Assembly: GCA_003697105.1 (NCBI GenBank)
Contig: RFFQ01000116.1
Location: 1-8,506, forward strand
DNA length: 8,506 bases
From: Gemmatimonadota bacterium
GTDB taxonomy: Bacteria > 4572-55 > J002
Direction: 5' to 3'
The position numbers were made by a program, and so were the translations under genes. Below, piece after piece: positions 2,051-7,962 of the stretch. The notes below the pieces were generated by a model. The model searched no databases, was not told the origin of the DNA, and saw only the letters and a program-made list of their open reading frames with translations. Each line of letters begins with the position of its first letter. The stretch's first letter is position 1.

Positions 2051-5000
2051 TCATTTTAAGAGTAACATTCGGCGGCTTTCGGTGGTATCACCGGTTTGCA
2101 ACGTATAGAGATAAAGACCGCTGGAAACTCCCAAACCGTTATTATCCGTACCATCCCATGTGATTTGATATGTGCCAGTCGATTGCTGGTCAAGGTCGAT
2201 CAATGTACGAATCAGATGACCTGAAATATCGTAAATACTAAGATTGACCGGCATCGCCTGTGGCAGTTGGTAGCGGATCGTAGTTTGCGGATTAAACGGA
2301 TTCGGATAGTTTTGATACAACGTCACTTGTTGAGGGACATGTAAGGTCAGGTCTGTTTGTTCCACATCTACGGTTTGGTCACTGCCGTAGATCACAAAGC
2401 GGTCAATAAACCAGCCCCGATGGTCATCTGTATTCGTGCTAGCAAACCGGAATTTGACTTGAATCCACTGTCCCATAAACGCACTCAAATCAAAGCGGAT
2501 TTGTTCCCATCCCTCACTGGAGCCGGTAAAACCGGGTTGGCCCGCTAATCCCACAACGGAATTGTCGGGATAACCGCCTTCCGGTACGACAATCACGCCT
2601 GCCGGATTCGCCGCAGTAGAAATCCGCACATGACCTCCATCCCAACCGGGATTTGTTTCATACCAATGGTGTAGAATTAGATGATAATCCAGTAAAGAAT
2701 CAATCGGCACATAAAAGGCGGGGCTCACAAGGTCTGAGTTTGCTTGAGGTTGGTAATTTCCATCCAGATTAAAGCCCCATAGATACTCGCCTTCGTACGC
2801 TTCTGCGGGACCACCTGCGGGTGTCGGGCTACCATACTCCCAACCACATCCGCCATTGGCGCACTCTTCCGTAAAATTGCCATCATCGGCTTCAAAACCT
2901 TGAATGCCGGCAAGGGCAAAATTGACCATCACCGGCTGATTTTCCGGTACGGTGGCTTGAATCATTCGCATTTCATGGGTGGGGTCTGCGGCGTAAACCT
3001 CGTAGGTGTATGATCCCGGGCAGATAATCTCATAAAATCCCTCGCTATCGGTGAAGACTGGGGGCAACTCAACACCATCTTGTACCGCCATCACCGCCAC
3101 ACCTGCCAAATGCACCTGATTCATATCCCAGACATAGCCTTGAATCCGTCCAGAGGGTAATGGGTTCAGGGGAATATCCACTTGCAAGGTCTCGTCTTCT
3201 GCTACGGTCAACATCCCGGACTCAAAAATTTCGTAACCAAAATGTTGGGCTGTAATTTGGTATTCACCGGCACCCGGCACATAAATCCGGTAGAAACCCG
3301 TTTCATCAGCTTGGACGGAATATTGATCGACTAAGGTGACCCTCGCCGGAACCGGATCGCCGTTTTCACTATTGGTGATGGTGCCCTCAATCGCTTCACC
3401 GGAAAGCGCTTCAATGGTGCTGATATATGGAATAAAATTGTGCCCGTCCACCACAAGGTCATAAGTGCCCATTTCAGAGGCATGGGTGTAGATGGTGGCA
3501 TCGCCATTCTGGTTGGTACGTCCAGTGTAAAATTCGTCTTGCTCTATGTTGGTGATTGCTACGGTGGCACCCCAAACTGGATTTCCGTCGCTGTCTTCCA
3601 CGTGGATTATCGTTTGGGAATCCCCAATGGGAAAGATCGGGTCATGTGTCACCACAAATTCTGTAGGGGTTTCGGTGTAAATCTCACACGTGGGATCACC
3701 CATCAGGGCAAAGTGATTGTAGGTATCTTCCGTGTAAATATCGGGTAACGGATAATCAATCACAACCACTTCTTTGCCCCAAAGCAGCGCACCCCCCATC
3801 GTAAAAATACCCTGTTCAAACATCGCCTCATAAATTCCCCGGTCGAGTGAATCCCGGCGACGGGCATACGGTTCCGGGGTAGTTACTTGCGATCCGGCAA
3901 TGGATCCAATCGAGCCTTCTGGGTCGGTAGAACTACCATCGCGCATCCAGCGGACACAAAAATCGTTGTTGTTATAGTTACACTTCCCGCAAGTCAGCCA
4001 CGTGACAAAGGGGTATTTCCCATCGGGGTCGATCATTTCCATCGTGATGCCATATTCCCCGATGTAACCTCGGTAGTTCAGAAACGCCCGTCCGTCATTG
4101 ACATTATCTACCACATCTCCCGTGTGGCCATTGGTGCGATATTCATTGATCTCAATATAACCGCCGGCTTCCTGCAACAACCGGGTCCCCACTTCATCAT
4201 ATTTGGTTTCAAAAGAGGATTCCTGCGAGCAGACCAAGGTTGCCCGCTTGTTCCAATCGGTACCATCTACCACCGGATTTTGTTCGTATTGAAGTGTCCG
4301 GTTGACCATTGTCAGCAAAGAAAGCGGTGAATTGGTGCAGGGAAAACGCCCGATAATCACATCTAATTTTTCATCGTCACCTTCCAAGTACCCATACGGG
4401 TTATCCCCGAGATATCCCGTCGTCGTCCAGCCGGGCAGTACATTACCATCCCCAATTAATAGGATGTATTCGGGACGGGTAGCCGGATCATCATACACAC
4501 TTTGAATATAAGCTTTAATTTCGTTATTCGAGTCTCCCGTCTCAGAGAACGGCGCCACATACGTCCGAATACCTTTTTTATTTTTCCATGCCGCAAAGGG
4601 ACCCAGCGCACCGGCTAACGCATCCGGGGAGATAATTAAAAACGACAACCCATCCGGCGCTTCCCGTAAACCCGAAAATAAATGAGGTTTAAGCGCCTCA
4701 TAATTGACAATCGCCTTCCGATAAAAGTCCTCAAATGTGGGAGAAGGTATTGACAGAATTGATTTTGGATTCTGGGTGCTAGTACCCGTAGTTTGAATTT
4801 CAATCTGCAAATCGGTGTAAACCCGTACATCTTTCGTCACTGGATTTACCTGAATCGGACATACTTGGAGAGCAACAACCCGCACATCGCGCCAGATTTC
4901 CGGCGAACCGAGTGTTGCCAGTTCTGCGGGATAGAACGCATCCCGCTCATAGATATGCGAATCCAAAAAATGCAGTTCCGGCTCGATGTAATCCGAATAG

Positions 5001-5350
5001 GGCAGAACATCTAAACCCGGTAAAATCTCATACGCACCGGCACGGACAGAAATTTCGGCATTTGCAGTTGGGGGGATGGCAATCAGGGTGGAAATCATCG
5101 GTAACCGGGGTGCTCCCGGTTCAGAAAGATGAGGCGTTTGAGGGAAGCTTATTTTGGCATACTCAAGTTGATCGATAGAGACAAAATCAAGGTTCACCCC
5201 GGCAACATCCACTCTTAGTGTTGTACCATTTAAGTTGGCTTCCGTAACCGTCACCTGAGGCGAAGCGGGTATCTCACTGGTCAGCGGCAACCAATCCGCA
5301 AACACCACCGGTGATAAAAAAATAAGAATAATGGTAATCCAATAGCGCAT
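2051..5350 (-). CDS. Gingipain-like C25 family protein with T9SS C-terminal sorting domain
   Basis: A 1099-aa protein starting at ATG 5350, with AAGGAGG 6 nt upstream. Signal peptide about 1-18 (ITIILIFLSPVVFA). Residues about 30-225 resemble a C25 propeptide. Residues about 236-558 are C25-like: FLIISPDAL, YILLIGDGNVLPGW, DVIIGRFPC, AFLNYRGY, VTWLTCGKCN with candidate nucleophile Cys454, and the closing FALMGDPTCEIY that matches the gingipain FGDPS region. The gingipain catalytic His (NYTGHGS) appears replaced by Tyr429, so activity is uncertain. Next come an Ig-like domain (562-645), two carboxypeptidase-regulatory-like beta domains (653-729, 735-813) and a jelly-roll or MAM-like domain (817-990). 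Residues 1010-1099 are a Por/T9SS type A tail (YQNYPNPFNPQTTIRY ... GLYLYTLQTG ... RRMLLLK). I infer export by the type IX system to the cell surface or medium. It is first after promoter 5433-5460. Confidence 0.92.
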   Translation of the reverse strand: MRYWITIILIFLSPVVFADWLPLTSEIPASPQVTVTEANLNGTTLRVDVAGVNLDFVSIDQLEYAKISFPQTPHLSEPGAPRLPMISTLIAIPPTANAEISVRAGAYEILPGLDVLPYSDYIEPELHFLDSHIYERDAFYPAELATLGSPEIWRDVRVVALQVCPIQVNPVTKDVRVYTDLQIEIQTTGTSTQNPKSILSIPSPTFEDFYRKAIVNYEALKPHLFSGLREAPDGLSFLIISPDALAGALGPFAAWKNKKGIRTYVAPFSETGDSNNEIKAYIQSVYDDPATRPEYILLIGDGNVLPGWTTTGYLGDNPYGYLEGDDEKLDVIIGRFPCTNSPLSLLTMVNRTLQYEQNPVVDGTDWNKRATLVCSQESSFETKYDEVGTRLLQEAGGYIEINEYRTNGHTGDVVDNVNDGRAFLNYRGYIGEYGITMEMIDPDGKYPFVTWLTCGKCNYNNNDFCVRWMRDGSSTDPEGSIGSIAGSQVTTPEPYARRRDSLDRGIYEAMFEQGIFTMGGALLWGKEVVVIDYPLPDIYTEDTYNHFALMGDPTCEIYTETPTEFVVTHDPIFPIGDSQTIIHVEDSDGNPVWGATVAITNIEQDEFYTGRTNQNGDATIYTHASEMGTYDLVVDGHNFIPYISTIEALSGEAIEGTITNSENGDPVPARVTLVDQYSVQADETGFYRIYVPGAGEYQITAQHFGYEIFESGMLTVAEDETLQVDIPLNPLPSGRIQGYVWDMNQVHLAGVAVMAVQDGVELPPVFTDSEGFYEIICPGSYTYEVYAADPTHEMRMIQATVPENQPVMVNFALAGIQGFEADDGNFTEECANGGCGWEYGSPTPAGGPAEAYEGEYLWGFNLDGNYQPQANSDLVSPAFYVPIDSLLDYHLILHHWYETNPGWDGGHVRISTAANPAGVIVVPEGGYPDNSVVGLAGQPGFTGSSEGWEQIRFDLSAFMGQWIQVKFRFASTNTDDHRGWFIDRFVIYGSDQTVDVEQTDLTLHVPQQVTLYQNYPNPFNPQTTIRYQLPQAMPVNLSIYDISGHLIRTLIDLDQQSTGTYQITWDGTDNNGLGVSSGLYLYTLQTGDTTESRRMLLLK

Positions 5351-6172: not shown

Positions 6173-6176
6173 GACA

Positions 6177-6208
6177 AAACCCGTTTTCCGGTACCGGAAA
6201 ACGGGTTT
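6177..6208 (-). terminator. Perfect 32-bp palindromic terminator closing the lexA operon
   Basis: The 16-bp half AAACCCGTTTTCCGGT (6177-6192) is followed directly by its exact complement (6193-6208), with no spacer. On the minus strand the hairpin starts 9 nt after the 69-aa gene's stop and is followed by TGTCTTT, a modest U-rich tail. The RNA loop must open a few central pairs (the GGTACC core). The symmetry means it could also stop plus-strand transcription, though that side lacks a U tract. Confidence 0.75.
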
Positions 6209-6217
6209 CAAGGTGCG

Positions 6218-6427
6218 TCATAAGATACGTAGCCACCAGCCAACGGCATATTGAGGCAAATCTCCCCCGCCGGAAGGCAGTTCATGTTTGCCGTAGCCTT
6301 TACCTCCAAAAAAAATGGGTTCGTAGCCGAGATATTCAGTGACCTTCTTTCGGGCTTTGGTCTCGCTACTGGCATCTTCCACAATGAAGACCCGTGGCTG
6401 GTTCTGTTTATTTTTTAAAATGATCAT
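6218..6427 (-). CDS. Hypothetical 69-aa protein cotranscribed with lexA
   Basis: I place the start at ATG 6427 (MIILKNKQNQ) because AGGAG sits 7 nt upstream; an upstream in-frame ATG at 6457 would overlap the end of lexA and has no such site. The gene begins 19 nt after the lexA stop and ends 9 nt before the terminator, so it is the last gene of that operon. The N-terminal half is charged and looks alpha/beta (RVFIVEDASSETKARKKVTEYLGYEP). The C-terminal half is rich in Gly and aromatics (FFGGKGYGKHELPSGGG, then YAVGWWLRIL). No signal peptide or membrane helix is visible. I recognise no family. Its place suggests LexA-controlled, damage-inducible expression; a function cannot be assigned. Confidence 0.7.
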   Translation of the reverse strand: MIILKNKQNQPRVFIVEDASSETKARKKVTEYLGYEPIFFGGKGYGKHELPSGGGDLPQYAVGWWLRIL

Positions 6428-6446
6428 GGGCTTCTCCTGGTAACAA

Positions 6447-7064
6447 TTAAATATCACGACGAAATAGGCGCACTACTTTTCCGATGATCTGCACATCGTT
6501 TGCGGAGTCGATTTCAATGGGCTCCATCAAGTCATTCTCGGGAATGAGCCGAATGTTATCGGGTGTTCGTTCCACCCGTTTTAAGGTAACGGTATCATTA
6601 ACCCGAACCACAGCCACATCCCGTTCGGTCACGGTGGGTTGCATCCGTACAATCACAATGTCCCCATCCCGAATACCCCGATTAATCATGGACGACCCTT
6701 TCACCCGGAGAGCAAACATCTGCCCATCCGAATTATCAAGCCCCATCGCTTCCCAATCAAACTGTTCCTGAATATCGGAAATCAGGGACTGTAACACCTG
6801 TAAATTACCGGCGGGAATCTCGTACAACAAAGGTATGTGCGGCATGGTAGGAATCCGTTTGGGAATAATCCCTCGGCTTTGCTTGCGGATATATTCAATA
6901 TAGCCCTTTTTGGAAAGGCGGGTGAGATAATCCGTAACCGAATTGAGGGACTTGAACCCAAAATGAACCATAATATCCTGAAACGAAGGGGAATGCCCCT
7001 GTTCCATGTAGTACGATTCAATAAACTTTAATACTTCACTCTCACGAGCGGTTAAGTTTTTCAT
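6447..7064 (-). CDS. lexA: LexA repressor (S24 family self-cleaving SOS regulator)
   Basis: I chose ATG 7064 (MKNLTARESEVLKFIESYY) because AAGGGGG lies about 6 nt upstream; the longer frame from 7148 would overlap the upstream gene and lacks a site. The 205-aa product is close to the usual ~200 aa. Residues 1-70 are the LexA winged helix-turn-helix. Residues about 76-205 are the S24 domain, with Ala85-Gly86 in YEIPAGNLQ as the self-cleavage site, Ser125 in VKGSSM as nucleophile and Lys162 in VTLKR as general base, equivalent to E. coli A84-G85, S119 and K156. LexA represses SOS genes until RecA-ssDNA triggers its cleavage. The recognition region (FGFKSLNSVTDYLTRL) departs from the common S-x-N-A-V-x-x-H pattern, so its operator may differ. 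A phage-type LexA-like repressor is the alternative. Confidence 0.92.
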   Translation of the reverse strand: MKNLTARESEVLKFIESYYMEQGHSPSFQDIMVHFGFKSLNSVTDYLTRLSKKGYIEYIRKQSRGIIPKRIPTMPHIPLLYEIPAGNLQVLQSLISDIQEQFDWEAMGLDNSDGQMFALRVKGSSMINRGIRDGDIVIVRMQPTVTERDVAVVRVNDTVTLKRVERTPDNIRLIPENDLMEPIEIDSANDVQIIGKVVRLFRRDI

Positions 7065-7077
7065 GAAAACCCCCTTT

Positions 7078-7284
7078 TTAATGAGCGACCGCAAAAGCCG
7101 AAACCGGTACCCGCTGTAAATACCGCTTATCTTTAAGTGCCTGAACATAATATGCCGCCAGATTGTTGGAACGCAACTTCAACTGCTGGCTGATTTCCTC
7201 AAAAGAGGGAAATACACCGGTTTTCACGCGGTAGGACTCGATAAAAAGCAGAACTTCTTGCTCCCGACGGGTTAAATTCCTCAT
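7078..7284 (-). CDS. LexA-type winged helix-turn-helix protein without peptidase domain (68 aa)
   Basis: ATG 7284 has a strong AAGGAGGTG 6-8 nt upstream. The product aligns with the N-terminus of the LexA encoded next: MRNLTRREQEVLLFIESY against MKNLTARESEVLKFIESY, with 19 of the first 31 residues identical by eye. It covers helices 1-3 of the DNA-binding domain (PSFEEISQQLKLRSNNLAAYYVQALKDKRYL) and then stops after VPVSAFAVAH. No Ala-Gly cleavage site, Ser or Lys dyad is present, so RecA cannot inactivate it by self-cleavage. Its TAA at 7078-7080 abuts the ribosome site of lexA (13-nt gap), so the genes are coupled. Its intact start, strong ribosome site and clean stop argue for a functional short protein, not a recent break. 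It is probably a DNA-binding co-regulator; this is inference. Confidence 0.8.
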   Translation of the reverse strand: MRNLTRREQEVLLFIESYRVKTGVFPSFEEISQQLKLRSNNLAAYYVQALKDKRYLQRVPVSAFAVAH

Positions 7285-7322
7285 GGTAGCACCTCCTTAG
7301 ATTGGAACGGTGGAATAGGATA

Positions 7323-7338
7323 CTGTATGAATATATAG
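7323..7338 (-). promoter_or_regulatory. SOS/LexA-box-like operator over the -10 region
   Basis: CTGTATGAATATATAG (plus-strand reading) matches the E. coli-type CTGT-N8-ACAG LexA box at 7 of 8 fixed positions, with an AT-rich centre. It covers the -10 and the predicted transcription start of the lexA operon, as expected for autorepression. The LexA operator of this lineage is not known, so this rests on similarity to gammaproteobacterial sites. Confidence 0.45.
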
Positions 7339-7358
7339 TGTAATTATATACATGTCAA
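7330..7358 (-). promoter_or_regulatory. Promoter of the lexA operon
   Basis: On the minus strand a consensus TTGACA (7353-7358), a 17-bp spacer and TATATT (7330-7335). The predicted start near 7323 gives a leader of about 40 nt before the ATG at 7284. This near-consensus promoter would need strong repression, consistent with the overlapping dyads. Confidence 0.75.
7339..7352. promoter_or_regulatory. Second dyad TGTA-N6-TACA in the promoter spacer
   Basis: TGTAATTATATACA has perfect 4-bp half sites and lies entirely between the -35 and -10 of the lexA operon promoter, directly next to the LexA-box-like site at 7323-7338. It is a plausible operator for LexA or for the single-domain LexA-like protein. 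Confidence 0.4.
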
Positions 7359-7491: not shown

Positions 7492-7520
7492 AAAAAACGC
7501 ACCCTATTAAACAGGGTGCG
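7492..7520 (-). terminator. Rho-independent terminator of the ~102-aa orphan gene
   Basis: On the minus strand an 8-bp stem CGCACCCT/AGGGTGCG (7498-7505 with 7513-7520) with a 7-nt loop, followed by six T residues (7492-7497). It lies 38 nt after the stop of the gene at 7559-7867. Confidence 0.88.
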
Positions 7521-7558: not shown

Positions 7559-7867
7559 TTAAACAGAACTACGAATTCGGCCAAGAACCCGAACATTATC
7601 GGTACCCGGAACCAAATCACTTAAGTTCACGGTGGCATCTACCGTTATTTCCCAACCATTGCTTCCTTTAGAAGGTACAAAATTATCGGCATGTTCTTGC
7701 GCCCACTGGTTGGATGTAGCCTTACTCCGGTAAATCCAAGCATCTAGCACCGTTAATTCATCAACCGTGCTGGGAACAGGGGTGCCTTGATCATCGTGCA
7801 ATGTACCAGTGAGTTGGGTTTGGGAAATTTGAGCATAATACATTTTCTCTTGTGTTTCTGCCGCCAC
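7559..7867 (-). CDS. Hypothetical protein of about 102 aa, GTG start
   Basis: I chose GTG 7867 because AAGGAGG lies 9 nt upstream; a TTG at 7873 would leave only about 3 nt. The product reads VAAETQEKMYYAQISQTQL, then TGTLHDDQGTPVPSTVDELT, LDAWIYRSKATSNQWAQEHA, NGWEITVDATVNLSDLVPG and a basic end (VLGRIRSSV). It has no signal peptide or membrane helix and looks like a small, mainly beta soluble domain. No family is recognised. The TGTLHDDQGTPVP segment recalls beta-sandwich modules that begin with G-x-V-x-D-x-x-G, as in phage structural and secreted proteins, but this is weak. It is a single-gene unit with its own terminator, beside mobile-element debris; no convincing promoter was found upstream. 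Confidence 0.7.
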   Translation of the reverse strand: MAAETQEKMYYAQISQTQLTGTLHDDQGTPVPSTVDELTVLDAWIYRSKATSNQWAQEHADNFVPSKGSNGWEITVDATVNLSDLVPGTDNVRVLGRIRSSV

Positions 7868-7962
7868 TATCAAACACCTCCTTTCTCGACAAAGTTTTAA
7901 TGACTTCTGTAAAATACGTAACTCCCTGAAATTTATGGCGTTACGGTGTTGATTTTTACTGG

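Follow-up and report, generated by a model that had tools for sequence, protein, structure and literature searches.

The window analysed here is the whole 8506-base contig C189 from the genome of an uncultured Gemmatimonadota bacterium (4.18 Mb, 97% complete, 199 contigs) and contains three closely spaced genes on the minus strand. The first gene (7284–7078) encodes a 68-aa stand-alone LexA-type helix-turn-helix (HTH) protein, identified by Pfam PF01726 and an AlphaFold2 model. The next gene, lexA2 (7064–6447), encodes a complete 205-aa LexA recognized by TIGR00498, PF01726 and PF00717. The last gene encodes a 69-aa orphan protein with no match in Pfam, NCBIfam or PHROG; a third gene following lexA2 had been listed by the first-pass annotation, and its start is corrected here to give the coordinates 6427–6218. 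The gaps are 13 bases between the short gene and lexA2 and 19 bases between lexA2 and the third gene.

Upstream of the short gene is a sigma-70 type promoter (TTGACA-17-TATATT, minus strand, 7358–7330), which agrees with the consensus at 11 of 12 positions and is the top match of the region. Each of the three genes is preceded by a Shine-Dalgarno sequence on the same strand: AAGGAGGTG for the short gene (7290–7298), AAGGGGG for lexA2 (7070–7076, within the 13-base gap past the stop of the short gene) and AGGAGAAG for the third gene (6431–6438). The operon ends with a terminator-like hairpin of 15 pairs on the minus strand (6176–6209; -23.9 kcal/mol, z -5.1), which has a weak T tail and is absent from the terminator scan listing. 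That scan identified a terminator-like site at 7498–7520, also on the minus strand, which would set the operon apart from the upstream gene (104 aa, 7559–7873). With the promoter, the end hairpin and the upstream site taken together, the three-gene unit therefore looks independently transcribed, and the short gene, lexA2 and the third gene are apparently co-transcribed from one promoter.

The neighbours of the operon within the 8.5-kb contig are secreted and membrane proteins, and domain searches recognized no phage genes in it. The region 2051–5350 encodes a 1099-aa gingipain-like C25 peptidase with carboxypeptidase-regulatory repeats and a C-terminal secretion sorting domain. The contig edge (8322–8504) contains the end of an IS91-type (Y2) transposase gene (PF04986, E=1.8e-6), and a fragment of a similar-looking transposase is present on contig C119.

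The 69-aa protein encoded by the third gene is predicted by AlphaFold2 to adopt a beta-beta-alpha-beta-beta fold (pLDDT 88.3), and a fold search in the PDB gave no match (best E 0.54). A paralogue of 80 aa with 51% identity is encoded on contig C29 (18232–18471), with no lexA nearby. The two proteins share conserved LGYEPxFF and W/Y-WLRI motifs. Members of this family are absent from 385 other genomes; searches of viral contigs returned no close relative, and those of phage and plasmid proteins no relative. Contig C189 is assigned to this genome because the family occurs in it alone, on two contigs.

The short protein and LexA2

Residues 1–61 of the short protein match the Pfam LexA_DNA_bind domain (PF01726) at E=2.5e-12, and the score of 46.8 bits is far enough above the cut-off of 23.7 that the frame is not a chance one. 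A LexA protein reduced to its DNA-binding part and encoded directly ahead of a complete LexA, as the first-pass annotation had described, is thus confirmed along with all three reading frames. No match to the S24 cleavage and dimerisation domain was found in the short protein by Pfam; the frame ends at residue 68 and the protein scores 41.2 bits against TIGR00498, below the cut-off of 110.95, which bears out the earlier statement that the self-cleavage and dimerisation domain is missing. The protein had also been called a winged helix. The AlphaFold2 model (mean pLDDT 91.8) contains the three HTH helices with confidence and no beta wing, so the model supports the helical half of that description and not the wing. 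The model superposes on the LexA-DNA complex 3jso with 1.2 Å over 52 residues. The wing region and the last nine residues of the short protein are degenerate.

LexA2 is recognized as a full LexA (TIGR00498, 150.2 bits against a cut-off of 110.95) with both the DNA-binding domain (PF01726, E=5.8e-18) and the S24 domain (PF00717, E=2.2e-27). The cleavage site is P84-A85-G86 and the catalytic dyad is S125/K162, 37 residues apart, so that the residues earlier reported as intact are found at those positions. With the Ala-Gly site and the Ser/Lys dyad both present, LexA2 is predicted to be a self-cleavable LexA. A second lexA, which could not be seen from the window itself, is encoded on contig C66 and is flanked by a PIN-domain gene and a type III pantothenate kinase gene (both named by eye from sequence). 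Its product, LexA1, is 48% identical to LexA2 and scores 168.7 bits against TIGR00498, compared with 150.2 bits for LexA2. No close relative of LexA2 was found among the genome contigs and viral contigs scanned, and comparison with phage and plasmid proteins gave nothing beyond ordinary LexA proteins at about 35% identity.

E. coli LexA contacts DNA through S39, N41, A42, E44 and E45 (PMC3091678). These five positions read S, N, L, A, Y in the short protein and S, N, S, T, D in each of LexA1 and LexA2. The short protein therefore departs from both LexA proteins at three of the five contacts (42, 44 and 45), with the acidic residue D/E45 replaced by tyrosine. We infer that the short protein should bind DNA, probably not the sequence bound by LexA with the strength of LexA. 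This binding could be weak, since the model has no wing and the protein has no dimerisation domain.

The SOS box and control of the operon

The SOS box of this genome appears to be E. coli-like (CTGT-N8-ACAG), because this motif precedes lexA1, uvrA and the operon containing recA. The lexA1 promoter carries it without mismatch. Copies with a single mismatch lie a short distance upstream of uvrA and about 150 bases upstream of dnaJ, which opens the gene run dnaJ-rsmE-recA-recX. A candidate LexA-box-like operator with one mismatch, CTaT-ATATTCAT-ACAG, is located on the minus strand at 7323–7338, where it overlaps the -10 element of the operon promoter and the start site. The 4.18-Mb genome contains six sites within three mismatches of ACTGTATATATATACAGT, this one included (the reversed control gave 0), and shuffled 80-bp upstream DNA matched the quality of this site in about 0.16% of cases (P about 0.0016). 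A weaker candidate operator, aTGT-ATATAATT-ACAc, lies on the minus strand at 7338–7353 between the -35 and -10 elements and retains six of eight half-site positions. The E. coli consensus was not found in the window at up to three mismatches over 20 bases. Across the whole window, CTGT-N8-ACAG with one mismatch occurs no more often than expected by chance; support for the operator therefore comes from its location at the promoter and from the count across the genome.

Other strong copies of CTGT-N8-ACAG precede genes without an SOS link, for example hypD and a PAS histidine kinase gene, and a regulator other than LexA may therefore use the motif too. On contig C24 (4173–4216) two strong sites are found 28 bases apart, between a gene for a PAS-domain histidine kinase and a divergent gene. 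Since the one-mismatch box overlaps its -10 element, the operon in the window is probably a LexA-repressed SOS unit.

Distribution and origin of the short gene

The comparison sample consisted of about 390 genomes (386 in the short-protein search, 385 besides the genome of the window), one of which belongs to the same class; all others are related at the domain level only. The tandem of a short gene and lexA was found in no other genome of this sample, and the same-class genome had no LexA DNA-binding domain among the matches listed from the PF01726 search. Apart from the short protein itself, all matches found with it in the 386 genomes lie in open frames of at least 199 aa, corresponding to full-length LexA or longer. 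The matches listed from the PF01726 search include at least three other short frames, none of which is a tandem; weaker cases may have gone unlisted. The frame in genome G182 (L080, 1672–2300) belongs to a lexA in two overlapping frames, with 84 aa of DNA-binding domain and 126 aa of S24 domain, and represents either a frameshift or a truly split LexA. The frame in G051 (L081, 2035–2490) encodes a 151-aa LexA-HTH protein with another C-terminus and no obvious S24 peptidase, and that in G302 is located at a contig end. A second genome sample, centred on G218, contained almost the same genomes and added nothing. Viral contigs scanned with the short protein and the third protein gave no close relative. 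The best phage match to the short protein is a stand-alone LexA-HTH protein of PHROG 362 (40% identity, E=2e-4). Relatives of the 106-aa mEp390 protein were found in 44 phage records, mostly enterobacterial, and include some full LexA-like proteins.

The similarity between the N-termini of the short protein and LexA2 that had been noted earlier is present, with 25 of the first 60 residues identical (42% over 59 residues), mostly within the first 31. The local duplication that had been suggested from it is a possibility that the comparisons do not establish: the short protein is as close to the LexA proteins of unrelated genomes from other phyla (32–44% identity) as it is to LexA2. The tree built from 24 DNA-binding domains is poorly supported; it does not join the short protein with LexA2 and does not settle where the short protein came from. 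Synonymous sites between the short gene and lexA2 are near saturation, with the same codon used at 13 of 24 shared residues where 9.8 are expected at saturation; if the two did arise by duplication, the split is thus old.

An open frame in which 42% of residues are kept at near-saturated synonymous divergence fits long-term function. In a neutral-decay simulation, 6% of copies survived when the divergence was shared equally, and 23% or more survived when most of it fell on lexA. A decaying unselected copy is therefore weakly rejected by the simulation; such a copy would usually, not always, have been broken by now.

Proposed function and comparison with known systems

Our tentative reading, the likeliest of those considered, is a three-gene SOS operon in which the short protein would be a damage-induced, uncleavable regulator with its own sites, similar to gp6 of GIL01, a tectivirus of Bacillus thuringiensis. 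Before damage, LexA1 and LexA2, which have the same five contact residues, would occupy the operon box and keep expression low. Damage would lead to cleavage of both and the operon would fire, until newly made LexA2 shut it again. The short protein has no cleavage domain and would persist, regulating at sites of its own in keeping with its changed contacts at 42, 44 and 45, as gp6 does in GIL01.

The uncleavable competitor for LexA operators put forward by the first-pass annotation, which would bind LexA boxes and set basal repression or dampen SOS induction, would be consistent with the LexA fold of the short protein, its retention of S39 and N41, and the apparent co-transcription of its gene with lexA2. 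It is nevertheless unlikely. Three of the five contacts are unlike those of both LexA proteins, including tyrosine in place of D/E45, the dimerisation domain is missing, and LexA without its C-terminal domain binds more weakly (PMC4807011); simple competition is for these contacts and this missing domain less likely than a separate binding site. The stop of the short gene is only 13 bases from the start of lexA2, a spacing that might instead suggest a role in the level or activity of LexA2, either through binding of the short protein to LexA2 or its operator complex or with the gene acting as a translational leader. The gp7 protein of GIL01 shows that small phage proteins can act on LexA (PMC6182141). 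This explanation is quite improbable, however, as lexA2 has its own Shine-Dalgarno site, and the HTH helices and fold that the short protein has kept would be unneeded by a leader.

The short gene could also be what is left of a lexA gained by duplication or acquisition, still translated but functionless and decaying. Its degenerate wing region and last nine residues, its occurrence in one genome and the IS91-type transposase fragment at the contig end are what decay after duplication or acquisition might leave behind, but the strong Shine-Dalgarno site and a frame still open despite near-saturated synonymous divergence make it improbable. The operon might otherwise have served immunity or lysogeny in a mobile element that is now defunct, with LexA2 as an SOS-sensitive repressor and the short protein as a Cro-like or late-gene regulator. 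Lambdoid phages commonly carry stand-alone LexA-HTH proteins of 106 aa, and the lexA2 of Leptospira sits in a prophage-like region (PMC3789691). Against this very unlikely origin are the contig itself, where no phage gene was recognized among the secreted and membrane proteins, the third gene, for which no relative turned up in phages or plasmids, and LexA2, whose only kin there are ordinary LexA proteins.

The timing of the damage response is usually set by operator strength and the speed at which LexA is rebuilt. If the short protein is indeed a damage-induced and damage-resistant regulator derived from LexA, it would add a second, delayed layer to this response, and the operon would show a repressor domain freed of its sensor becoming a new regulator. 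The fuller form of this idea is doubtful: a chromosomal two-stage SOS switch, with damage clearing the cleavable LexA proteins while also inducing a LexA-derived regulator that cannot be cleaved and that acts on operators of its own. Such a switch would impose a second, delayed round of gene control after the damage, or a memory in that control. Within the literature searched, a delayed-layer regulator of LexA origin has so far been shown only in a phage.

Several known systems share parts of this arrangement. LexA2 resembles canonical autoregulated LexA in having the LexA_DNA_bind and S24 domains, the cleavage site, the dyad and a candidate box over its own promoter, and differs in lying between the short gene and the orphan gene. 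A second cleavable LexA per genome is also found in Leptospira and Xanthomonas, where LexA2 binds its own promoter (PMC3789691) and no short HTH gene is described alongside; the Leptospira LexA2 recognizes a different palindrome, whereas LexA1 and LexA2 of the genome studied here have identical contact residues. The LexA-HTH proteins of lambdoid phages (PHROG 362; mEp390 gp43, SfV) are, like the short protein, a single LexA-type HTH without an S24 peptidase, but they are 106 aa long and are encoded beside rusA or dam-type genes with no full lexA adjoining; the literature searched yielded no functional test of them.

The closest counterpart is gp6 of GIL01, a truncated LexA homologue encoded by a gene of 201 bases and 44% identical to the matching part of LexA (PMC6182141). 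In that phage LexA represses the promoters P1 and P3, and gp6 binds its own palindrome and activates the late promoter P3, switching on late genes once damage removes LexA (PMC6182141). The short protein, at 68 aa and with the LexA HTH only, falls within the same class of about 66–70 aa, and the candidate LexA box over the -10 element of its gene suggests that it too may be made from a LexA-repressed promoter beside a full LexA. The likeness is drawn from the published description of gp6, which was shown to activate a promoter, and from the sequence of the short protein. GIL01 gp6 further differs in being a phage gene that uses the LexA of its host, is not in tandem with lexA and belongs with Bacillus-type operators.

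Neither the literature searched nor the genomes sampled offered another operon that combines a truncated LexA with a second LexA behind a likely SOS box, so the earlier remark that no SOS circuit with this layout had been described stands for the tandem itself and needs qualifying for GIL01, where gp6 is a truncated LexA beside a LexA-controlled promoter. Each element has precedent, a second LexA (PMC3789691) as well as a truncated LexA regulator, and the two together in one operon are apparently undescribed. The operon in the window would repeat the apparent logic of GIL01 gp6 on a bacterial chromosome, where a cleavable LexA is encoded in the operon itself.
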